64,000 nt of DNA, from the NCBI RefSeq assembly GCF_001437155.1, contig NZ_JQAR01000006.1, forward strand, positions 18,550-82,549. The letters are read 5' to 3'. Positions within the stretch are counted from its first letter, which is position 1. The number at the start of each line of letters is the position of its first letter. Below the pieces are notes generated by a model. The model worked only from the letters and a program-made list of their open reading frames with translations. It searched no databases and was not told the DNA's origin. Below are positions 3,582 through 19,943 of the stretch, in pieces. Source of the DNA: Liquorilactobacillus mali. Lineage in GTDB: Bacteria > Bacillota > Bacilli > Lactobacillales > Lactobacillaceae. The translations under genes were made by a program, and so were the position numbers.

Positions 3582-4919
3582 ATGTCCACAAATTCTTATG
3601 ACTACGATGTCTTATATCTTGGAAGTGGTCATGGTACATTCGATGGTGCAATTCCACTAGCTGCACAAGGTGTCAAAGTTGCTGTTGTTGAAAGCGGATT
3701 GGTTGGTGGTACTTGTCCTAACCGAGGGTGCAATGCAAAAATCACACTTGAAGCTCCCGCTGCACTCGCTAATCAGGTAAGTGAGATGCAAGGGCTTGTC
3801 AATCCATCTTTAACGCTGAATTGGCAAAATACAGTTGCACACAAGCATGAAGTAATCGATGCTCTTCCTGAATTTATCGCTGATTTAATGAAAAATAACG
3901 GGATTACCCTGATTAAAGGTCGCGGACATTTTATCGATTCTCACACTATTATAGTGAATGGAAAGAAAATCTCTGCAGAAAAATTTGTGATTGCTACTGG
4001 CATGCATCCGCATCAACTTGATTTACCAGGTCGTCAAATTGTAAATAACAGCAATGCCTTTATGAATTTAAAAAAGTTGCCTAAGCGTATCGCTATTATT
4101 GGTGCGGGATACATTGGAATGGAATTTGCTTCAATCGCATCTGCATTTGGCTCTCAAGTCACAGTTATTATGCGTGCAGATAAAGCATTAAGAAGATTTC
4201 ATCAACCTTTTGTAGAAAAAATAATTACCAAACTCAGTGATGCTGGCGTAGGTTTTATCAAAAATGCAAACATTAACTCATTTTCAGATGACTTTGGTAA
4301 TAAAACCATTCATTACAATGATACGGAAAAAATCGAAGCTGATTGGATTTTAGATGCAACTGGGCGCATTCCCAACACAACAAGTCTTGGTCTAGAAGAA
4401 ATTGGAGTGGACTATGACAAGGATGGAATTATTGTAAACGACTACTTACAAACAACTATTCCCCATATTTATGCGAGCGGTGATGTTATAAAGAAGAATC
4501 AGCCCAAGCTAACTCCTACTGCTATTTTCGAATCACTTTATCTGATGAAGACCTTCACCGGTGCAACAAAACAACCGATTGTCTATCCGGCAATTCCTTC
4601 AACCGTTTTCACTACCCCTAGAATTGCAAGAATTGGTATTACACCGGAAGAAGCGGCCGAGGATGATAATTTAACTGTTTCAACGAACAATGTTTTAGAT
4701 AATTGGTATCGTAATGTTGAAAAAGAAACATTTGGTGAAAATAAATTAATCTACACCAAGTCTCACCAGCTTGTGGGTGCGACAGAAATAAGTAATCATG
4801 CTGAGGATGTTATTAACACTCTGTTACCGGCAATTGAACTAAAGCTAACCCCTGAACAAGTTGAAAGAATTATCCATATTTTCCCAACAATCGGATCGGC
4901 TGCTTGGGAGAATTTATAG
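3582..4919 (+). CDS. FAD-dependent pyridine nucleotide-disulfide oxidoreductase
   Basis: Class I flavoprotein disulfide reductase fold, 445 aa (usual 440-470). The N-terminus has an FAD-binding GSGHGTFDGA variant. Next comes the redox-active disulfide in GGTCPNRGCNAK, an NAD(P)-binding site IIGAGYIGMEFAS at about residue 165, and the second FAD motif IYASGDV. The dimerisation domain ends IIHIFPTIGSAAWEN. In glutathione reductase and lipoamide dehydrogenase this place reads H-P-T with a nearby Glu, forming the catalytic acid/base. Here the His is Phe and the Glu is not evident. The nucleotide sites and disulfide suggest a disulfide-linked or quinone/NADH oxidase-like activity, but substrate cannot be assigned. 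The start is fixed by AGGAGG seven bases upstream, within a long hairpin. Confidence 0.85.
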   Translation: MSTNSYDYDVLYLGSGHGTFDGAIPLAAQGVKVAVVESGLVGGTCPNRGCNAKITLEAPAALANQVSEMQGLVNPSLTLNWQNTVAHKHEVIDALPEFIADLMKNNGITLIKGRGHFIDSHTIIVNGKKISAEKFVIATGMHPHQLDLPGRQIVNNSNAFMNLKKLPKRIAIIGAGYIGMEFASIASAFGSQVTVIMRADKALRRFHQPFVEKIITKLSDAGVGFIKNANINSFSDDFGNKTIHYNDTEKIEADWILDATGRIPNTTSLGLEEIGVDYDKDGIIVNDYLQTTIPHIYASGDVIKKNQPKLTPTAIFESLYLMKTFTGATKQPIVYPAIPSTVFTTPRIARIGITPEEAAEDDNLTVSTNNVLDNWYRNVEKETFGENKLIYTKSHQLVGATEISNHAEDVINTLLPAIELKLTPEQVERIIHIFPTIGSAAWENL

Positions 4920-5020
4920 GTATAAACCACTAATAGTTGTTATGCCTCACTAATTGTATGAGTTGTATGAGTGATTGAAGACTAACTGGAAAACTCAACT
5001 TATGAAACATATCCATATAT

Positions 5021-5073
5021 AAGAAATAAGATTCAGGTCAAGAAATTACATTTTGACCTGAATCTTATTTCTT
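5021..5073. terminator. Perfect 21-bp inverted repeat, likely terminator
   Basis: Bases 5021-5041 and 5053-5073 are exact reverse complements around an 11-nt loop. It lies 102 bases after the oxidoreductase stop. The A/T-rich ends (AAGAAATAAG / CTTATTTCTT) resemble a terminator, though there is no clean T-run. Confidence 0.65.
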
Positions 5074-5110
5074 ATTCTCTCGGAAAAGAATTATTTCTTT
5101 AAATAATTAC

Positions 5111-5139
5111 TTCACTAATTTTGAATCCAAAGATATAAT
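5111..5139 (+). promoter_or_regulatory. Sigma-A promoter for the small membrane protein
   Basis: TTCACT (5111-5116), a 17-bp spacer and TATAAT (5134-5139) stand 28 bases before the start codon at 5168, with a strong AAGGGGGAG ribosome site in between. Confidence 0.6.
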
Positions 5140-5167
5140 ATAGAATAGGTTAAAGGGGGAGTTATAA

Positions 5168-5536
5168 ATGAAAAACAATAGAAAAAAAGTAACATTTGAT
5201 TGGAAATATGGCCTTTATGCTAATATATACTTTCTGGCTTTTGTTCCTATGCTACTTTTTTTTAAAAATTCAATTTCCCTAGCCCTGGCTATATCTATAA
5301 TTCTAATTTTATTTTTACTCATCTTTTTTCATCTGTTCGAGAAAAAACATGATGCCTACAAATCAAAAAATCGTGATTATTTTAAATCCGCATATATTAC
5401 CTGCTCAGTTTTCTTCGCTGTCGGTGAATTAATTCTCATCTTTAATTACCAAACTTCTCAGAATTTATTACTATTATTTATTTATGGTATTTTTTGGGTC
5501 TTTATCAGAGATGGATTCTCCTCTGAAAAATTATAG
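5168..5536 (+). CDS. Small four-helix membrane protein, unknown function
   Basis: 122 aa with a basic N-terminus (MKNNRKKVTF) and four hydrophobic segments at about residues 15-34, 37-58, 75-93 and 98-115. The second and third are separated by a charged loop rich in Lys and Asp. No family recognised. Supported as a real gene by a good promoter, a strong ribosome site seven bases before the ATG and hydrophobicity typical of an integral membrane protein. Its 3' end overlaps the convergent pyruvyltransferase gene by six bases. Confidence 0.7.
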   Translation: MKNNRKKVTFDWKYGLYANIYFLAFVPMLLFFKNSISLALAISIILILFLLIFFHLFEKKHDAYKSKNRDYFKSAYITCSVFFAVGELILIFNYQTSQNLLLLFIYGIFWVFIRDGFSSEKL

Positions 5537-6556
5537 ATCATACTTATTTGAATTTAACTGTATTACATGTCTTAGTTGATTGAAATCATCCTTAATATCG
5601 TATTCATGTGTTTGAACTTGCATAAGCTCATTGATTTGCTGTTGAATCCTCTCCAGATCGTCCTCATCAGTATAGCTTACCCAATTAATATGCTCTAACC
5701 AATCAAAATAAGCGTGTTTCCCTTTACCATAACTATTTCCAAACAATAAGCAAGGCGTACCTGTCAATACAGAGAATACCATTGCATGCCACCTATCGGT
5801 CACAATAATCTCTTGTTTTGCGAAGAGTTCCAACTCCTGTTTGAACAATTTTTCGCGATTAATCGGAGTAATTCGCTTGACCGTGTCAAGAACTGTGTCT
5901 GTTTCGTCTACGCTATGATTCTCACTCAACATATTTTTTATTCCATCAACAGTTTCTTGCTTCACAATTTTTTCGCTGTCATGCCGCAACACGATCAGTG
6001 CACTCGACCTCTCAACCTCATGTTTCACAGGTTTCATATACAAAACCATATCAGGTGTAAACAAGACCTTATTTTTAAAAGTTGTCTGCATCCGATGATA
6101 GCTCTGTGCATCCCGTGCAATTAGAAAAAGATGCGGATTCTTTGCATAGGCTTCTTGACTCAGCTTTTCTTCAGCCTTACCATGTTCGTTATCTTCAAAA
6201 TGCATTGATTGTGGAAATGAAATTGTCAGATTATCAACAAATGTTGAAAATACTTTGCGACGAGCCTCTTCATGGTCAGTATACAAGCTGCCCATATTCC
6301 CTCCGCCAACAAATGAAACAATGTCACCTGGTCTAATAGCCTTTTTGACTATTTCAATTCCCTCATCATTATCATCTTCCAGAATCTCAATGAATTGATA
6401 TTCTGGAAACTCATGTTCAATATACTTTTTTTGGGCCAAAGACACCGCTTGATCACCCAAATTAGTATATGTAGGTACACCAAAAGAGTAAAATTTTGGC
6501 AAATCATTTGCGGGCAATTCATGAGTTACTTCATCTTTAATGTAGAATTCAACCAT
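5531..6556 (-). CDS. Polysaccharide pyruvyl transferase family protein
   Basis: 341 aa protein of the PS_pyruv_trans family (EpsI/EpsO/CsaB-like), which moves pyruvate from PEP to a sugar of a surface polymer. Seen: the N-terminal glycine-rich site YTNLGDQAV, the central GGGNMGSLY, FPQSMHF, and the C-terminal TDRWHAMVFSVLTGTP, all typical of the family. The start is supported by GGAG six bases upstream. It lies 34 bases after an MFS sugar porter gene on the same strand, so they may be co-transcribed. No exopolysaccharide cluster is in the window, so the acceptor is unknown. It could decorate a wall glycan encoded elsewhere. Confidence 0.88.
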   Translation of the reverse strand: MVEFYIKDEVTHELPANDLPKFYSFGVPTYTNLGDQAVSLAQKKYIEHEFPEYQFIEILEDDNDEGIEIVKKAIRPGDIVSFVGGGNMGSLYTDHEEARRKVFSTFVDNLTISFPQSMHFEDNEHGKAEEKLSQEAYAKNPHLFLIARDAQSYHRMQTTFKNKVLFTPDMVLYMKPVKHEVERSSALIVLRHDSEKIVKQETVDGIKNMLSENHSVDETDTVLDTVKRITPINREKLFKQELELFAKQEIIVTDRWHAMVFSVLTGTPCLLFGNSYGKGKHAYFDWLEHINWVSYTDEDDLERIQQQINELMQVQTHEYDIKDDFNQLRHVIQLNSNKYDL

Positions 6557-6590
6557 AATATCTCCTACTTTCTTTATCTACTGATACTAA

Positions 6591-7967
6591 CTATTTTAAT
6601 TCCATACCTGCCTTGTATGCTTTTCGTAATTTGTTATTTTTTAAAACAAGCGTTGAAAAAACAATACTTATACTATTTGTGATTGCAAATGCAAAGAAGG
6701 CCGTTGCAGTCCCAACAACAGATATAAGAACTGGGAAAATCAGACTAATCACAAAATTAGAAAGCCATACTGTCGCCGTAGAAACGGACATTAGTCGTGC
6801 TTTAATCCTATTTGGAAAAATCTCAGTCAAAATTAACCATGTAACCGGACTGACAATTCCTTGATGGCACGCAAGAAAGAGTGCCAAGAATACCAGAACC
6901 AAAACATTAGTAACCATCTGTGAAAATAATGCAGTTTTCATAGTCATTCCAAGTAAAAATAAGAATAAAACGTTACCTATCAAACCTACTACAAGCATCT
7001 TTCTGTGATTATACCTGTCAATCAATCTTGTGCCTGCAAGACTTGCGATAAGTGAAACAAAACCAATTAAAATATTGGCATATAAAGAATCACCTTGCCC
7101 CATTCCTACCTTTTCCATCAATATGGTACCGTAATACATCACCGCGTTAACACCTGAGATTTGCTGAATTAAAGCAATCAACATTCCGCAAACCAGCAGA
7201 TAACATAGACTCTTATTCTTTAAAATATTTTTCCATGAAACTTCGGTCTCCTCTTCCTCTACAGAATTTTCCTTTAACTTATTGTAAGCTAGTTTGTTAA
7301 AGCCTAATTTCTTAAAAATACCCTTGGCCTTTTTATACTGTTTCTCAGCCATAATCCAAATTGGACTATTAGCAATTTTGAATGATCCAATCCATAGAAT
7401 TACTGCAGGGATACTTGCTGAAAAAATCATTACTCGCCAGATAGGAGACCAATCTCCCCAAACATTTCCTAAAATCGCATTAACAACAAAAGCAACGAGC
7501 TGACCTAGAACAATTGCAATAGCATTTTTATTAACGTTGACCGTCCTGACGGCTCTGGGAGAAATCTCTGCCAAATACATTGGCGAAATGCCTGATGCTG
7601 CACCAACCGCAACACCCAGAATAAATCTAAAAGATGCCATCAACCAAAAATTTATTGCAAACGCACATAAAATCGTAGAAATCGTAAATACGATGGCAAT
7701 AAGTCTTAATGTTCGCCGACGCCCGATATGATCGGCAACTCGGCCGCATCCTAACGCTCCAATGCAAGCTCCCAGAATCAATGAACTTGAAACTACACCT
7801 TGTAATGTTGGGTTTAGATTAAGCTCAGTTGACTTACTCATAAATGCTAAAGCTCCATTAATAACTCCCGTATCATATCCAAATAAAAAGCCTCCCAGCG
7901 AAATAACATACACACAATATTTCAAAAAACTGGTTTGACTCTTATCTTGGTTGTCACTATCCATCAA
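6591..7967 (-). CDS. MFS sugar porter (SP family, IolT/AraE-like)
   Basis: Proton-coupled sugar or polyol symporter of the major facilitator sugar-porter family, 458 aa, twelve predicted membrane helices. Signature motifs: GRVADHIGRRR between helices 2 and 3, PMYLAEISPRAVR after helix 4, the helix-7 substrate motif LIQQISGVNAVMYYG, RLIDRYNHRK after helix 8 and LTEIFPNRIKAR after helix 10. The nearby dehydrogenases of the inositol dehydrogenase family make an inositol-like substrate plausible (inference). Two adjacent ATG codons can start it; GGAGAGG lies nine bases before the first. Codes toward the pyruvyltransferase gene. Confidence 0.92.
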   Translation of the reverse strand: MMDSDNQDKSQTSFLKYCVYVISLGGFLFGYDTGVINGALAFMSKSTELNLNPTLQGVVSSSLILGACIGALGCGRVADHIGRRRTLRLIAIVFTISTILCAFAINFWLMASFRFILGVAVGAASGISPMYLAEISPRAVRTVNVNKNAIAIVLGQLVAFVVNAILGNVWGDWSPIWRVMIFSASIPAVILWIGSFKIANSPIWIMAEKQYKKAKGIFKKLGFNKLAYNKLKENSVEEEETEVSWKNILKNKSLCYLLVCGMLIALIQQISGVNAVMYYGTILMEKVGMGQGDSLYANILIGFVSLIASLAGTRLIDRYNHRKMLVVGLIGNVLFLFLLGMTMKTALFSQMVTNVLVLVFLALFLACHQGIVSPVTWLILTEIFPNRIKARLMSVSTATVWLSNFVISLIFPVLISVVGTATAFFAFAITNSISIVFSTLVLKNNKLRKAYKAGMELK

Positions 7968-13958: not shown

Positions 13959-14492
13959 TTATACCTGTTTTTCCGATATACCTGCTTGCCAATTCACATA
14001 ACGAGCCATTGCAAACAAGTAATCAGACAATCTATTTGTATACCGTAAAATTGATGCTGTTATTGATTCATCTTGAGTAGCTAAAAAGTCCACTGATCGT
14101 TCAGCCCGCCGTGCAAGGGTCCTAGCATACTGAATTTCAGCAGCAACTGAGTTACCACCGGGTAACACAAAGGCCTTCAATGGAGGTACTTCTCCCATCC
14201 ATTTATCAATTTTAACTTCCAAACGCATTACGTGGGTATCAGTAATTGTTTGATGGCGTGGCACACCTATATCCGCTAGCAACTCATATAATTCTGTCTG
14301 CAACATTAAAAGTTCATTACCTAACCACTTGGCATATCCATCATAATCTATATGAGCACGAACAACACCTAACCACGAATCTAACTCATCAATATCACCC
14401 AAAGCCTTAATTTGAGGGTCATATTTAGGTATCTGCCCACCTTTTATTTGAATAGTAGTTCCTTGATCGCCACGTTTCGTGTACAGTTTCAT
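13959..14492 (-). CDS. PduO-type cob(I)alamin adenosyltransferase
   Basis: Makes adenosylcobalamin from cob(I)alamin and ATP; 177 aa. Family motifs seen: MKLYTKRGDQGTT at the N-terminus (ATP site), the helical bundle with RTLARRAERSVDFL, and NRLSDYLFAMARY near the C-terminus. I use the ATG at 14492 because GGAGG lies seven bases upstream; the in-frame ATG 18 bases earlier precedes that ribosome site. It is divergent from the AdoCbl-dependent ribonucleotide reductase, so its natural customer is next door. No propanediol or ethanolamine genes are present. Confidence 0.93.
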   Translation of the reverse strand: MKLYTKRGDQGTTIQIKGGQIPKYDPQIKALGDIDELDSWLGVVRAHIDYDGYAKWLGNELLMLQTELYELLADIGVPRHQTITDTHVMRLEVKIDKWMGEVPPLKAFVLPGGNSVAAEIQYARTLARRAERSVDFLATQDESITASILRYTNRLSDYLFAMARYVNWQAGISEKQV

Positions 14493-14575
14493 CTTTAGTC
14501 CTCCAATCATATTTTGTATTTCACTTCAAACAGTATCATGTTAAAAGCATTTATTTTAAAAGTCAAGACTTTAAA

Positions 14576-14621
14576 TACAGTATATTGTGTGTATAATGAT
14601 TTTTGTACACAATATGTTGTA
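14576..14621 (+). promoter_or_regulatory. Two NrdR-like boxes around the RNR promoter
   Basis: TACAGTATATTGTGTG (14576-14591) and TACACAATATGTTGTA (14606-14621) both resemble the NrdR consensus ACACwATATwTwGTGT. Their starts are 30 bp apart, close to three helical turns, the usual NrdR arrangement. A TATAAT at 14592-14597 sits between them, so binding would block the promoter. No cobalamin riboswitch was seen in this leader, which is only 35 nt from box 2 to the ATG. Confidence 0.8.
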
Positions 14622-14655
14622 TTTAATTAAAATGCTTATTTAGGAGGAAACAGTT

Positions 14656-16842
14656 ATGAAAGAAATAATTACCATACCAGATACTGTCATTAACAACATT
14701 ATGCAAAACGTTGCGCCACATTGGGGCCCACTTGGTTGGGTAACATACAAACGAACATATGCACGTTGGATATCTAACAAAAACCGCAGTGAAGAGTGGC
14801 CGGAAACAGTGAAACGGGTGGTTGAAGGCAATATTAATCTAGATCCTCGTTTGCATAAAGACAATCCAAACCCAGAAGTTGTCCATTCTTTGTCTATGGA
14901 GGCACAACAACTATTTAAGATGATCTATGGTTTGGCAGCAACACCTAGCGGCCGAAATCTATGGATTTCTGGAACTGATTATCAGCAGCGTAACGGTGAT
15001 TCACTTAATAATTGCTGGTTTATTGCGATTCGTCCACAAGCATACGGTAATAGCCATATTGAGCCAATTATGGTATCAAAGACCGAAAAAGCTGTTTCAA
15101 TGCCCTTCGCTTTTCTATTTGACCAGTTAATGAAAGGCGGTGGCGTTGGTTTTTCAGTTGAAAAAAATAATGTTGCAAAGATTCCAGCCGTTGATCATGC
15201 CATAAATTTGCAAATTATTATTAGTCACGACAGTGCTGCATATGATGAGTCCCTGGCAACAGGAGCTAAAGACCGTGACAAAGCATTGATTGCCCGTGAT
15301 GCCCTTATTTATGTGCTTCCAGACACGCGCGAAGGATGGGTAGAGGCATTAGCCCAACTCATTGATGCCCACTTTATTGGAAATTACAAGGAGATCGTGT
15401 TTGACATAAGCAAAATTCGTGCACGGGGTGTACGAATTCATGGGTTCGGAGGAACCGCATCAGGACCTGCTCCATTAATTGAAATGTTGAAGGATGTAAA
15501 CGCCATCATTAACAACAAAGTCAGCGCAAAGCTCAACTCGGTCGACTGCACAGACATTAGTAACCTGATTGGTAAAGCAGTTGTTGCTGGTAACGTGCGA
15601 CGTTCCGCCGAAATTGCTCTTGGGGATAGTAATGACTATAATTTTATTACCATGAAACAAAATAAAGATAAGCTTTATCACCATCGCTGGGCTTCAAACA
15701 ATAGTATTATCACTGACGAAAAGTACGCAAATTATGGTGACGTAGCAGAAGCCGTCGCAAAAAATGGTGAACCTGGAATCTTCAATCTAGATATGTCACG
15801 AAATTACGGACGGATCGCAGATGGTCGGCAAAATAATGTCGATGCATCTGTAGAAGGGACTAACCCTTGTGGTGAAATTTCGTTATCAAATGGTGAGCCT
15901 TGCAACCTTTTTGAAGTATTCCCGAGCATAGCTGAAGAACAAGGATGGAAACTAAAAGACGTTGTCACTTTAGCTGCCCGTTATACTAAAAGAATAACTT
16001 TCAGTCACTACGACTGGGAGGTATCGCGGCAAAGTATTGCCAAAAATCGGCGAATTGGTGTCTCCCTTTCCGGCATTCAAGATTGGTTTCTAAAAGACTT
16101 CGGTAATCGAGTTGTGACAGGATTTAACACTGAGGGTGACGCTATCTTTGATAAGCGAATTGTTCATGCTATTGATGAGCTTTACCATAACGTTGTACAA
16201 GCTGACAATGAATATTCTGCTGTGTTGGCCTGCAATAGATCAATCAAGCACACCACAGTTAAACCCAGTGGAACCGTATCAAAACTCGCTGGTGTCTCTG
16301 AGGGCATGCACTTTCACTATAGTAACTATCTGATTCAAAGAATCCGCTTTCAGGAAAGTGATCCGCTTCTTCCGGTACTACAAAAATGTGGATACCACAT
16401 TGAACCAGATGTTTACACCCAAAATACTAAGTGTGTCGAGTTTCCAGTAAAATCCGCACATGCAGACAGCGAACATTTTGCTAGTGCAGGTAATGTATCA
16501 ATTGCTGAACAGCTTGCCACTCAAGCATTTTTACAAAAATATTGGTCAGATAATGCCGTTTCCTGCACGATTACATTCCAACCAAGCGAAACACAGCAAA
16601 TTGCTCCCCTATTGGCTAAATATCGAAATGCCATTAAGTCAACATCATTACTGCCATATGCTGGTGATGCCTTCGAGCAGGCACCGAAACAACCAATCAC
16701 AAATACAGAATATAAAGCATGCCTGACAAAAATTACCGATGATGTTGAAATGGTCTATGCCCGTGAACATGGACTGGAAAATCAGGACCTGGAAATTGTC
16801 GGCCAACAGGATTGTGTTGACGGTTCATGTCCAATTAAATAA
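14656..16842 (+). CDS. nrdJ: Adenosylcobalamin-dependent ribonucleoside-triphosphate reductase (class II RNR)
   Basis: Reduces NTPs to dNTPs with a cobalamin-generated thiyl radical; monomeric, 728 aa, close to the 739-aa L. leichmannii enzyme. Seen: C120 in NNCWFIAIRPQ (one of the active-site disulfide pair), NPCGEISLSNGEPCN with the radical Cys and catalytic Glu at about residue 400, the KPSGTVSKLAG loop, and the C-terminal redox pair C720/C725 in CVDGSCPIK. All essential residues appear present. TAGGAGG precedes the ATG by eight bases. Flanked by a cobalamin adenosyltransferase and a probable corrinoid uptake pair. The two NrdR-like boxes upstream indicate control by dNTP/ATP levels through NrdR. 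Confidence 0.96.
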   Translation: MKEIITIPDTVINNIMQNVAPHWGPLGWVTYKRTYARWISNKNRSEEWPETVKRVVEGNINLDPRLHKDNPNPEVVHSLSMEAQQLFKMIYGLAATPSGRNLWISGTDYQQRNGDSLNNCWFIAIRPQAYGNSHIEPIMVSKTEKAVSMPFAFLFDQLMKGGGVGFSVEKNNVAKIPAVDHAINLQIIISHDSAAYDESLATGAKDRDKALIARDALIYVLPDTREGWVEALAQLIDAHFIGNYKEIVFDISKIRARGVRIHGFGGTASGPAPLIEMLKDVNAIINNKVSAKLNSVDCTDISNLIGKAVVAGNVRRSAEIALGDSNDYNFITMKQNKDKLYHHRWASNNSIITDEKYANYGDVAEAVAKNGEPGIFNLDMSRNYGRIADGRQNNVDASVEGTNPCGEISLSNGEPCNLFEVFPSIAEEQGWKLKDVVTLAARYTKRITFSHYDWEVSRQSIAKNRRIGVSLSGIQDWFLKDFGNRVVTGFNTEGDAIFDKRIVHAIDELYHNVVQADNEYSAVLACNRSIKHTTVKPSGTVSKLAGVSEGMHFHYSNYLIQRIRFQESDPLLPVLQKCGYHIEPDVYTQNTKCVEFPVKSAHADSEHFASAGNVSIAEQLATQAFLQKYWSDNAVSCTITFQPSETQQIAPLLAKYRNAIKSTSLLPYAGDAFEQAPKQPITNTEYKACLTKITDDVEMVYAREHGLENQDLEIVGQQDCVDGSCPIK

Positions 16843-16871
16843 GTGTACTTTAAAGAATGGAGGATAGTATT

Positions 16872-17252
16872 ATGTCTTTTTTGAAACGTCTCGTCGTTAC
16901 CATGCTCACTATTTTGGTGATAACCACAGGTGTCGCTGGTTGTACTCAACAATCAACTAGTAAAACTAATAGCGATCACGCCACCATAGTATTGATCGTA
17001 AATCACAAACAAGTTGCCAAGAAGCATGTGGTAGTGGTTAAAAAAGAAACTATAATAAAAGCACTTAGGTCCAAATTTAAGGTAAAAACTACAAAGGGAT
17101 TCATTACCTCAATCAATGGTCACACACAGAATACGAAGAAAAATAAATATTGGATGTATAAGGTCAACGGTAAAACTGCATCCAAAGGTGCCGATGCTAC
17201 TACCATACACAAGGGCGATAAGGTTGCATTTACACTCAATGCACAGAAGTAA
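16872..17252 (+). CDS. DUF4430 (transcobalamin-like) lipoprotein
   Basis: 126 aa. Lipoprotein signal with positively charged start, hydrophobic core and lipobox VAGC (about residues 20-23), followed by a Ser/Thr linker. The mature part has the DUF4430 pattern: a strand region KTTKGFITSINGH, then NKYWMYKVNGKTASKGAD and KGDKVAFTL. DUF4430 resembles the C-terminal domain of transcobalamin/intrinsic factor. The start is placed at 16872 because GGAGG lies eight bases upstream, while the earlier in-frame ATG overlaps that site. It is 29 bases after nrdJ and its end overlaps the S-component gene, so a surface corrinoid-binding role is a reasonable inference. Confidence 0.82.
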   Translation: MSFLKRLVVTMLTILVITTGVAGCTQQSTSKTNSDHATIVLIVNHKQVAKKHVVVVKKETIIKALRSKFKVKTTKGFITSINGHTQNTKKNKYWMYKVNGKTASKGADATTIHKGDKVAFTLNAQK

Positions 17253-17772
17253 CCACATAGGCACACGGCGTCTAACATTTTTGGCCTTGATGACGGCGCT
17301 CTGTGTGGTAGGCCGCTTTGCATTCGTTTCTATTCCTAATGTACAACCAATAACGGCAATTGTTGTGTGGTTAACACTAACGATGGGTATTTTTGACGGT
17401 ACAGTGGTCTCCATGCTGAGTATGTTGATTACCAACCTGTTTATGGGTATGGGATATTGGACATTAGCACAACTAGCTGCATACTTCACAGTTGTCTTGC
17501 TGGTAGCATTGTTAGGACAATGGCATTGTTCGCATCCACTCTTGATTCACAGCATAATAGCCGCATGCATGGGCTTTGTCTATGGTTTTGCCGTTAGCCT
17601 GTTTCAAGCACCAATTCTCGGTGGGTTCCCTGCTGCATTCGCCTATTGGTTAGTCGGAATTCCATTTGACGCAATGCACGCGTTTGGCAACATTATTATT
17701 TATCCCTTGCTAGCTCCACGCCTCACTAAATTGATAAAGCGTTATCCAAGGTTTATTGATCCCCACAATTAG
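17239..17772 (+). CDS. ECF transporter S component, probably for cobalamin
   Basis: 177 aa membrane protein with about six hydrophobic segments, beginning MHRSNHIGTRRLTFLALMTA. ALMTALCVVGRFAFVSIPNVQP is typical of substrate-specific S components of energy-coupling-factor importers (CbrT/YpdP-like). It works with a shared EcfAAT module coded elsewhere. The ATG at 17239 lies inside the end of the DUF4430 gene (14-base overlap), and only a weak AAGG stands upstream, suggesting translational coupling. Position in a cobalamin-use cassette argues for a corrinoid substrate; the sequence alone does not prove it. Confidence 0.82.
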   Translation: MHRSNHIGTRRLTFLALMTALCVVGRFAFVSIPNVQPITAIVVWLTLTMGIFDGTVVSMLSMLITNLFMGMGYWTLAQLAAYFTVVLLVALLGQWHCSHPLLIHSIIAACMGFVYGFAVSLFQAPILGGFPAAFAYWLVGIPFDAMHAFGNIIIYPLLAPRLTKLIKRYPRFIDPHN

Positions 17773-18100: not shown

Positions 18101-18643
18101 CTAATCAAACAATGGTAATTTTTCCAGATATAAAATATCTTTTCGCTCGCTGGCTTCACCTTCTGCTAAAATAGCAGCTTCCGATATTACATGTCCTCCC
18201 GCATCCTCAACTAATTTCTTTGCAGTAGCCATTGAACCGCCACTGCTAATTACATCATCCAAAAGTAGAATTTTCTTTCCAGAAATCATTTGTGCATCTT
18301 CACCATCTAACACTAGGACTTGCTCCTGACTAGAGGTAATAGCATTGACCGCCAAAACACGTGGATCTCTCATATAGTCCTTAACCTTTTTCCTAAGAAC
18401 TATGTATCGTTTTTTCCCCATACAGTGACTTAGTTCTTGTGCCAATGGAATTCCCTTACTCTCCATCGTTACTATATAGTCGAATGGTTCATTAATCATT
18501 TTGCTCAACTTCTGAGCAGCATAATGAGTTAATTCTGCATCCCCCAGCAACACAAAAGAAGCAATTGTAAGAGTCGGATTCAACCTAATTAATGGCAATT
18601 TACGTGTAAGATTACCTAATTTTAATTCGTAATATTTTGACAT
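18101..18643 (-). CDS. Purine-type phosphoribosyltransferase (Apt/Xpt-like)
   Basis: Type I phosphoribosyltransferase, 180 aa. The PRPP-binding motif is seen as ILLLDDVISSGGS (about residues 123-135), preceded by a loop YIVLRKKVKDYM and a hood region FDYIVTMESKGIPLAQELS as in adenine and xanthine PRTs. Likely salvages a purine base to its nucleotide. Its ATG lies two bases after the stop of the nucleobase permease, so the pair is one import-and-trap unit. Which base it uses is not clear; adenine or xanthine are the main options. Confidence 0.82.
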   Translation of the reverse strand: MSKYYELKLGNLTRKLPLIRLNPTLTIASFVLLGDAELTHYAAQKLSKMINEPFDYIVTMESKGIPLAQELSHCMGKKRYIVLRKKVKDYMRDPRVLAVNAITSSQEQVLVLDGEDAQMISGKKILLLDDVISSGGSMATAKKLVEDAGGHVISEAAILAEGEASERKDILYLEKLPLFD

Positions 18644-18645
18644 CT

Positions 18646-19725
18646 CTATAACCCCAATCCAATCAACGGCAATAAGAATTTTAAGAAGGCTCCTGTTGTT
18701 ATTCCAACGAATGGATCAAAAATTGCGGTTACAACTAATGTAATCCCTGCTACAAGACTATTTGATCCATTCAATGCAGCTGCAGCATTCTCAGGGAAAA
18801 TAACAACTGCACCTAAAATAAATAAGAAACCTGCAATCGACGAACTTGGAACAAACTTGCCGATTTTAGGCAACCAGCCAGCAAATAAAATAAGTGCCAT
18901 GATGAGCATCATCATTATTCCAGCAATCACGGGTTCGGGTGCACTTGCCGTCGCAGAAATAATTGTTTCTACTGGTGCTCCTCCTAGGAGACTAGTTCCC
19001 ATATCCGCAAGCGACTGCGTAATCGTCAACAGGTTCAAGTTTACCGGATTTGGCTTGATTCCAGTCATCTGCCCTGTTATCAAACCATATGACAGATTTG
19101 CTCCAATATTGAGACATGCCAATCCAAGTGCTCCGCGGACTACTCGCATGCTAAAGGTTGGCTTTAAAAATCTAAATCTGCGTTCCGTCACGCTAGTTGG
19201 TAATTCTTTACGATAATGTTCTACAAAAACCGCAAATGCACTCGAGACAATTACTGATAAAACAATCGTCCAAACTAAATCTTTCGAAATTACATATGTA
19301 ATAGCTGCAACTAGAATTGAAATCCAACCAGTTTTGCTCTTACTTTCTTTGTTCATATCTACGGCTATCTTGGCAAGCATTAGTCCGACACCTGCCATCA
19401 TACCGTCAATAATATTATTGCCTAATACCGAGACAATCTTAGGCAATAATCCTGTAAAACCAATAATAGCCATAATTATTGAACCGCCAAAAATAATGGA
19501 TGTTCGTTCCCGTAAGTCTTTCCCCAAGTTCCCAGTCAAAGCCAGCGATTCAGCCTGAAACGAGATCGGGGCTACTGAGCCAAAAGCTCCATTAACTGCT
19601 GAGGCAAAAACAAATGAAAAAGTTGTTGGAAAAACGGCAAATCCCAGCCCCATTGCCATGATTCCTTGTGGAATACCATTTAATACTACTCCAATAGCAG
19701 CCATTAAATCTGATAACAAATGCAT
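18646..19725 (-). CDS. NCS2-like nucleobase permease (xanthine/uracil permease superfamily)
   Basis: 359 aa polytopic membrane protein with about ten or more hydrophobic helices. The NGAFGSVAPISFQAESLALTG segment resembles the helix-3 substrate region of NCS2/AzgA-type carriers, and IIDGMMAGVGLMLAKIAVDM resembles helix 4-5. Shorter than the usual 420-450 aa. Tightly coupled to a purine-type phosphoribosyltransferase, which supports a purine base as cargo (inference). I start at 19725 since GGAGG is six bases upstream; the ATG two codons earlier touches that ribosome site. Confidence 0.78.
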   Translation of the reverse strand: MHLLSDLMAAIGVVLNGIPQGIMAMGLGFAVFPTTFSFVFASAVNGAFGSVAPISFQAESLALTGNLGKDLRERTSIIFGGSIIMAIIGFTGLLPKIVSVLGNNIIDGMMAGVGLMLAKIAVDMNKESKSKTGWISILVAAITYVISKDLVWTIVLSVIVSSAFAVFVEHYRKELPTSVTERRFRFLKPTFSMRVVRGALGLACLNIGANLSYGLITGQMTGIKPNPVNLNLLTITQSLADMGTSLLGGAPVETIISATASAPEPVIAGIMMMLIMALILFAGWLPKIGKFVPSSSIAGFLFILGAVVIFPENAAAALNGSNSLVAGITLVVTAIFDPFVGITTGAFLKFLLPLIGLGL

Positions 19726-19943
19726 AAACATCCTCCAATAAACATATATTATTAACCATTAAGCCAAATATAATTCGTATAACATGAAAATATTATAATA
19801 AAAAGAGCACATTTTCAACATATTTCGCAAAAAATAGAAACTTTACGACTAAAATCAATAAAATTAAAATAAAGCTTTCTTTTAGTGAGTAAAAAATATA
19901 TTATTATGATTGTGTCATTATTTTTCAGAGGAGGAGCACTGTC

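Follow-up and report, generated by a model that had tools for sequence, protein, structure and literature searches.

A predicted cobalamin supply cassette for class II ribonucleotide reductase in Liquorilactobacillus mali

Within the 64,000-nucleotide stretch of L. mali DNA analysed here (the window), four genes form a compact cassette which we regard, with a probability of about 85%, as a cobalamin supply module of the class II ribonucleotide reductase (RNR), in which NrdR would provide control, CbrS binding, CbrT import, and PduO and NrdJ use. A salvage-to-use route of this kind, in which corrinoid is caught, imported, adenosylated and used in NrdJ, had been proposed in the first-pass annotation of this DNA, and most of the tests made here are in keeping with it. 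As a module that supplies B12 to an RNR, the cassette is ordinary and well supported; its type and the salvage-to-use scheme are already published (PMC5997447, PMC1796856). What varies in the window is a divergent pduO and the presence of two NrdR-like boxes between pduO and nrdJ.

Gene layout and control region

The adenosyltransferase, the adenosylcobalamin (AdoCbl)-dependent RNR, the DUF4430 lipoprotein and the ECF S-component, which the first-pass annotation had grouped, were all found together. The features are the following (window coordinates).

13959..14492, minus strand: pduO, PduO-type cob(I)alamin adenosyltransferase (ORF open to 14510; likely start ATG 14492)
14575..14590, no strand: NrdR-like box 1 (genome contig position C56:33124-33139; 32 bp from box 2)
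14607..14622, no strand: NrdR-like box 2 (genome contig position C56:33156-33171)
14656..16842, plus strand: nrdJ (rtpR), adenosylcobalamin-dependent class II ribonucleoside-triphosphate reductase (728 aa; TIGR02505)
16872..17252, plus strand: cbrS, DUF4430 (transcobalamin beta-domain-type) predicted lipoprotein (126 aa precursor; PF14478)
16941..16943, plus strand: lipobox cysteine codon (V-A-G-C) of CbrS, by eye from the sequence
17239..17772, plus strand: cbrT, ECF-type cobalamin S-component (177 aa; start within the end of cbrS)

Three starts were set by eye. That of pduO is most likely ATG 14492 rather than 14510, and that of the DUF4430 gene is ATG 16872 rather than 16857, each with GGAGG just upstream. 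The S-component starts at ATG 17239, not at the mechanical ORF start at 17116, and the overlap of the last two genes behind the RNR gene, already described in the first-pass annotation, is consequently 14 nt. Transcription of pduO points away from nrdJ, so the co-directional run consists of nrdJ, the DUF4430 gene and the S-component gene only. A gene 100% identical to the cbrS query is present in L. mali KCTC 3596 (L085). No cobalamin riboswitch was detected at the gathering threshold in the window or in 26 further stretches, two of them from the same genome, and the window contains no tRNA. Beyond the cassette (18101-19731) lies a phosphoribosyltransferase gene (NF005592, 229 bits) and, directly upstream of it, a gene for a 361-aa membrane-like protein that matches no Pfam or NCBIfam model at E≤0.001; our guess is that this pair serves purine salvage.

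NrdJ matches TIGR02505, the model for monomeric AdoCbl-dependent ribonucleoside-triphosphate reductase (RTPR), over its full length with 756.5 bits (curated cut-off 340.05), and also matches PF21995 and PF17975 in Pfam. PduO scores 162.9 bits against the equivalog-domain model TIGR00636 (curated cut-off 108.45) and 158.8 bits against PF01923, the sole match to that family in the genome. From general knowledge of the two families, PduO would adenosylate the corrinoid and NrdJ would use AdoCbl to produce dNTPs; the same genome also encodes class I (NrdE) and class III (NrdD) RNRs. Searches of this genome for PF02310 domains and for QueG detected neither, which leaves NrdJ as the one B12 enzyme seen in a survey of that scope. 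In the NrdJ tree the window sequence clusters with that of the metagenome-assembled genome L086 (99/98), apart from L. oeni of the same genus, a placement that speaks against vertical inheritance of the cassette. Transfer is only suggested, because the window sequence forms a long branch.

The two 16-bp near-palindromic boxes between pduO and nrdJ are 32 bp apart, about 51 and 83 bp before nrdJ; they resemble the NrdR-box consensus. They show zero mismatches by construction, since the search pattern was derived from them. With up to three mismatches, the same pattern also detects pairs upstream of nrdHIEF (spacing 33 bp) and of nrdD (31 bp), spacings of about three helical turns like that at nrdJ; all three RNR operons found in this genome bear box pairs, and it also has an NrdR gene (202.6 bits). 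Single boxes at up to two mismatches numbered 36 on both strands versus 23 for a reversed-pattern control, which is just moderately above it, and the argument hence rests on the pairs and their places. A 32-bp pair occurs upstream of nrdJ at seven of 22 other loci and in none of 500 mononucleotide shuffles per region; by this pattern the other 15 loci have no pair. NrdR acts as a repressor and responds to cellular nucleotide status. The paired boxes suggest that it controls nrdJ, cbrS and cbrT; the divergent pduO would probably share this control region.

CbrT and its linkage to B12 enzymes

By its sequence, the S-component is a homologue of CbrT, the cobalamin S-component established for L. 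delbrueckii. A phmmer search matched residues 49-204 of the 218-residue ORF to CbrT of that species (PDB 6fnp_A; 110.9 bits, E 7.5e-31). The first-pass annotation had treated the protein as a corrinoid importer, and no grouping with a non-corrinoid family appeared: 6fnp_A is the only PDB match at E≤1. It is very improbable that the protein imports another vitamin or cobalt in place of cobalamin. In favor of such a role, it passes just the broad PF12822 in Pfam (33.7 bits) and matches no NCBIfam model; against it stand the single PDB match and the company that the gene keeps, for 33 of 35 genomes with a CbrT-like gene in the sample described below also have RTPR, an NrdJ_Z-type RNR, QueG or PduO. 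The two exceptions (G101, G115) have weak CbrT-like matches (E 2e-5 and 9e-5).

Santos et al. 2018 (PMC5997447) showed that ECF-CbrT of L. delbrueckii takes up both cobalamin and cobinamide. By analogy with that homologue, the present CbrT would dock on a shared ECF module encoded elsewhere and import corrinoid with ATP. EcfT-type PF02361 matches lie on two other contigs, C9 (184.1 bits) and C12 (75.2 bits), and none is found in the cassette.

We examined linkage in a sample of 121 Lactobacillaceae genomes, the present one included. DUF4430 was found in 30 and CbrT-like genes in 35, and, over cut-off, RTPR was found in 15, PF01923 in 26 and QueG in 19. In one-sided Fisher tests at the level of genomes and of 40 genera, where kinship among genomes and genera makes the P values guides only, DUF4430 was associated with CbrT-like genes (together in 28 genomes; P 1e-18, genus level 4e-6), RTPR with CbrT-like genes (14 of the 15 RTPR genomes, G105 lacking a CbrT-like match; P 4e-8, genus level 3e-4), RTPR with DUF4430 (15 of 15; P 3e-11, genus level 4e-6) and QueG with CbrT-like genes (all 19 QueG genomes; P 6e-13, genus level 6e-4). 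The DUF4430 gene lies directly behind RTPR (matches within about 300 bp) in nine of the 15 RTPR genomes (G000, G021, G030, G049, G050, G081, G098, G108 and G114) and apart from it in the other six. Among the nine, pduO follows directly in seven, is divergent in the window and is distant in G114. The order nrdJ-cbrS-cbrT-pduO is found in seven of the 14 RTPR genomes sampled apart from the present one and, as annotated, in L. intestinalis. Linkage of the DUF4430 and S-component genes to nrdJ and pduO across lactobacilli, which the first-pass annotation had set as a check, is widespread. Coincidental adjacency of the cassette genes was ruled out by the linkage counts (121 genomes; 80 loci).

A wider set of 80 named DUF4430 loci, several of which end at contig edges, included CbrT-like genes at 66, PduO at 43, RTPR at 32 and another RNR at five; ten had none of these. 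At the 32 RTPR loci PduO was always present, and CbrT-like genes were present at 29. Four Enterococcus-type loci (L097, L101, L102 and L105) carry a class II RNR of another type as the partner; PduO is adjacent and CbrT is divergent. Two members of this other RNR type, from G027 and from an E. faecium plasmid, match TIGR02504 (NrdJ_Z) with 576 and 578 bits and NF005991 with 1378 and 1346 bits, respectively; both models describe B12-dependent RNR. In Lactococcus nasutitermitis (L135) the gene that comes after the DUF4430 gene matches the MetH activation domain weakly and below the cut-off, and the third gene encodes a methionine synthase-type protein with two B12-binding domains; in Agrilactobacillus yilanensis (L162) queG lies behind the cassette. 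Relatives of the DUF4430 protein are, in sum, encoded next to or near RTPR, another class II RNR or MetH, or co-occur with QueG.

QueG was present in 25 of 34 genomes checked for it. Twenty-five of 34 genomes had a CbrT-like gene with no class II RNR at the locus, and 19 of these 25 had QueG; the other six are all Limosilactobacillus. This genus is known for its B12-dependent glycerol dehydratase.

Several variants of the locus were also seen. In genus g15 (G014, G052, G083 and G110) the CbrT-like gene adjoins queG, and no DUF4430 match is found in the genome. Genus g22 is stepwise: G021 (L056) has the full nrdJ-cbrS-cbrT-pduO set, G058 (L063) is without nrdJ, and G089 (L064) is without nrdJ and pduO. 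At eight Streptococcus loci, including those of S. suis and S. agalactiae (L091, L098, L111, L119, L121, L140, L141 and L150), a cbrT-like gene directly precedes cbrS, QueG is present in the genome, and there is no class II RNR at the locus. On plasmid NZ_CP118956.1 of E. faecium DSM 20477 (L167), typed as conjugative, genes for a B12-dependent RNR, an adenosyltransferase and a DUF4430 protein (3823-7303) are situated between insertion sequences, with no S-component annotated in a 14-kb stretch; among 47 plasmid records that match CbrS, 40 are from Enterococcus.

CbrS and the transcobalamin beta domain

CbrS matches PF14478 (DUF4430) with 76.7 bits, the sole match to this family in the genome. 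A signal peptide and a lipobox (V-A-G-C) were recognized by eye. Predicted lipidation is not conserved: a single regular expression, which may miss some, finds the lipobox in 46 of the 80 named relatives, and the relative in L. oeni is without the Cys. In Lactobacillus kimbladii (L095 5980-6833) cbrT is preceded by a tandem pair of CbrS genes, of which only the first has the lipobox cysteine; a wider gap before cbrT suggests tandem CbrS genes also at L096, L099, L100, L103, L110 and L114.

The first-pass annotation had likened DUF4430 to the C-terminal domain of animal B12 carriers, and for the predicted fold this likeness is borne out. The AlphaFold model of CbrS (56 sequences) has pLDDT block means of 91-98 from residue 41 onward. 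In VIA-align the beta domains of 14 structure entries for the B12 carriers transcobalamin, haptocorrin and intrinsic factor match it at Z 12.8-14.2; with 3u7z included the range is Z 12.8-14.6, and the next fold group reaches Z 7.9. Foldseek places the model with the same carrier group (E 1.3e-5 to 5.4e-4). Other beta-grasp and toxin-component matches (VIA-align, Z under 8) were taken as a common fold arrangement. Against the human transcobalamin beta domain (5no0, 5np4; PMC5599065) the model gives Z 13.1 and an rmsd of 2.0-2.1 Å over 89 residues at 15% identity. Transcobalamin was out of reach of sequence-profile searches of the PDB with CbrS (E≤10) and was recovered by fold comparison alone.

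In the model a helix (61-68) is followed by strands 71-74 and 77-81, which form a hairpin. According to the account of the fold in PMC1796856, a hairpin inserted after the helix defines the transcobalamin-like clade. Five positions are invariant (I81, Y93, W94, N99 and K101); mapped by strand order rather than superposition, they fall where the hairpin ends and within the strands that follow. The corresponding part of the domain is described as anchoring the ligand in rat transcobalamin, and Cbl as being bound first by the beta domain (PMC11107200). Crystals of the human beta domain by itself with CNCbl and with cobinamide have been reported (PMC5599065). With its lone transcobalamin-type beta domain, CbrS, predicted to be lipid-anchored outside the membrane, would bind cobalamin or cobinamide and concentrate the corrinoid at CbrT or hand it over.

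It is unlikely, though less so than the doubt raised above about CbrT, that CbrS plays no part in corrinoid capture for CbrT and instead helps to assemble or stabilize CbrT at the membrane, serves as a scaffold near the wall, or binds some other ligand, for example a metal. The main text of PMC5997447 mentions cbrS once, as a gene of the cluster, and in L. delbrueckii ECF-CbrT appears to transport without it. No DUF4430 match was found in seven of the 35 genomes with a CbrT-like gene, and QueG is present in five of the seven, so CbrS is not always needed. By sequence, its closest relative of solved structure is 3u7z, which carries the name of a putative metal-binding protein. In Lactococcus, DUF4430 lipoprotein genes (L116, L147 and L157) lie beside polar amino-acid-type ABC genes (the L116 permease by profile scan, the other two contexts by eye) with no B12 neighbor, and a common fold does not prove function. 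Set against these points are the linkage of DUF4430 proteins to the unrelated B12 enzymes RTPR, NrdJ_Z-type class II RNR and MetH, and a fold match to the B12 carriers far above that to the next group. We favor corrinoid capture by CbrS; given the apparently CbrS-independent published transporter and the seven genomes without DUF4430, the protein is best seen as an aid to affinity or delivery.

Six genomes encode a full ECF transporter (EcfT-like protein, fused ATPase and S-component) together with at least one DUF4430 protein and a further secreted protein: G084, G109, G088, G027, Enterococcus xiangfangensis (L123) and Enterococcus sp. CSURQ0835 (L138). The EcfT-like proteins of these six, which we call group I relatives, were named by tblastn or by eye. 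A profile of the six secreted proteins matches squalene-hopene cyclases (E 8e-7), and their assignment as toroid-type rests on this match and not on an AlphaFold model (L138 and L123, both 5′-cut), which had a mean pLDDT of 44.9 and was set aside. Four of the toroid-type proteins (L071, L072, L073 and L080) match no Pfam family at E≤0.001. Animal transcobalamin consists of an alpha/alpha toroid and a beta domain, and bacterial fusions are among the proteins described in 2007 (PMC1796856). In the six group I relatives the predicted toroid-type and DUF4430 parts are separate genes. With two Enterococcus and four sampled lactobacilli adding a separate toroid-type protein, the halves of transcobalamin would here be encoded apart.

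Relation to known systems

The gene order nrdJ-cbrS-cbrT-pduO of L. delbrueckii is given in PMC5997447, which credits the prediction of the cluster to Rodionov et al. 2009. The present cassette resembles it in the order nrdJ, cbrS, cbrT and in the CbrT, NrdJ and PduO families, and differs in that pduO lies divergently on the other side of nrdJ. From its position in the cluster, we infer that the published cbrS is the DUF4430 gene. Scavenging of B12 by stand-alone beta-grasp proteins encoded in operons with CbiO/CbiQ-like genes was proposed by Burroughs et al. 2007 (PMC1796856). The present CbrS resembles the transcobalamin-like clade of the SLBB beta-grasp superfamily in being a stand-alone, predicted secreted protein with the post-helix hairpin and in its linkage to B12 use; the RNR context of the cassette is a difference from that account, since the word "Ribonucleotide" is absent from its main text. 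Unlike human transcobalamin, a circulating two-domain carrier, the cassette has no alpha domain, and CbrS has a predicted lipid anchor. In L. rhamnosus, LGG_02295 appears in PMC9963975, through annotation and proteomics, as an "additional lipoprotein component of putative cobalamin ECF transporter"; like CbrS it is a DUF4430 protein encoded near rtpR. In the open-licence PMC literature, as far as its accessible text goes, we found no experimental test of CbrS; cbrS, lipoprotein and DUF4430 do not occur in PMC12075633, nor CbrT or CblT in PMC2667541.

To our knowledge, ECF transporters are characterized by having no soluble substrate-binding protein. There is perhaps an even chance that CbrS is an exception, an ECF transporter with a binding protein in which a tethered beta domain delivers to CbrT, that the halves of transcobalamin are separate genes beside a B12 importer, and that streptococcal CbrT-CbrS would import cobalamin mainly for QueG, the B12 enzyme covered by the search in streptococci.

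Knowledge of what CbrS does would reveal whether certain ECF transporters rely on an external binding protein, and would tie bacterial B12 capture directly to the animal carriers. The presence of a CbrT-like gene in all 19 QueG genomes of the sample, five of them without DUF4430, suggests QueG as a possible use for imported B12 in lactobacilli that have no B12-dependent RNR.
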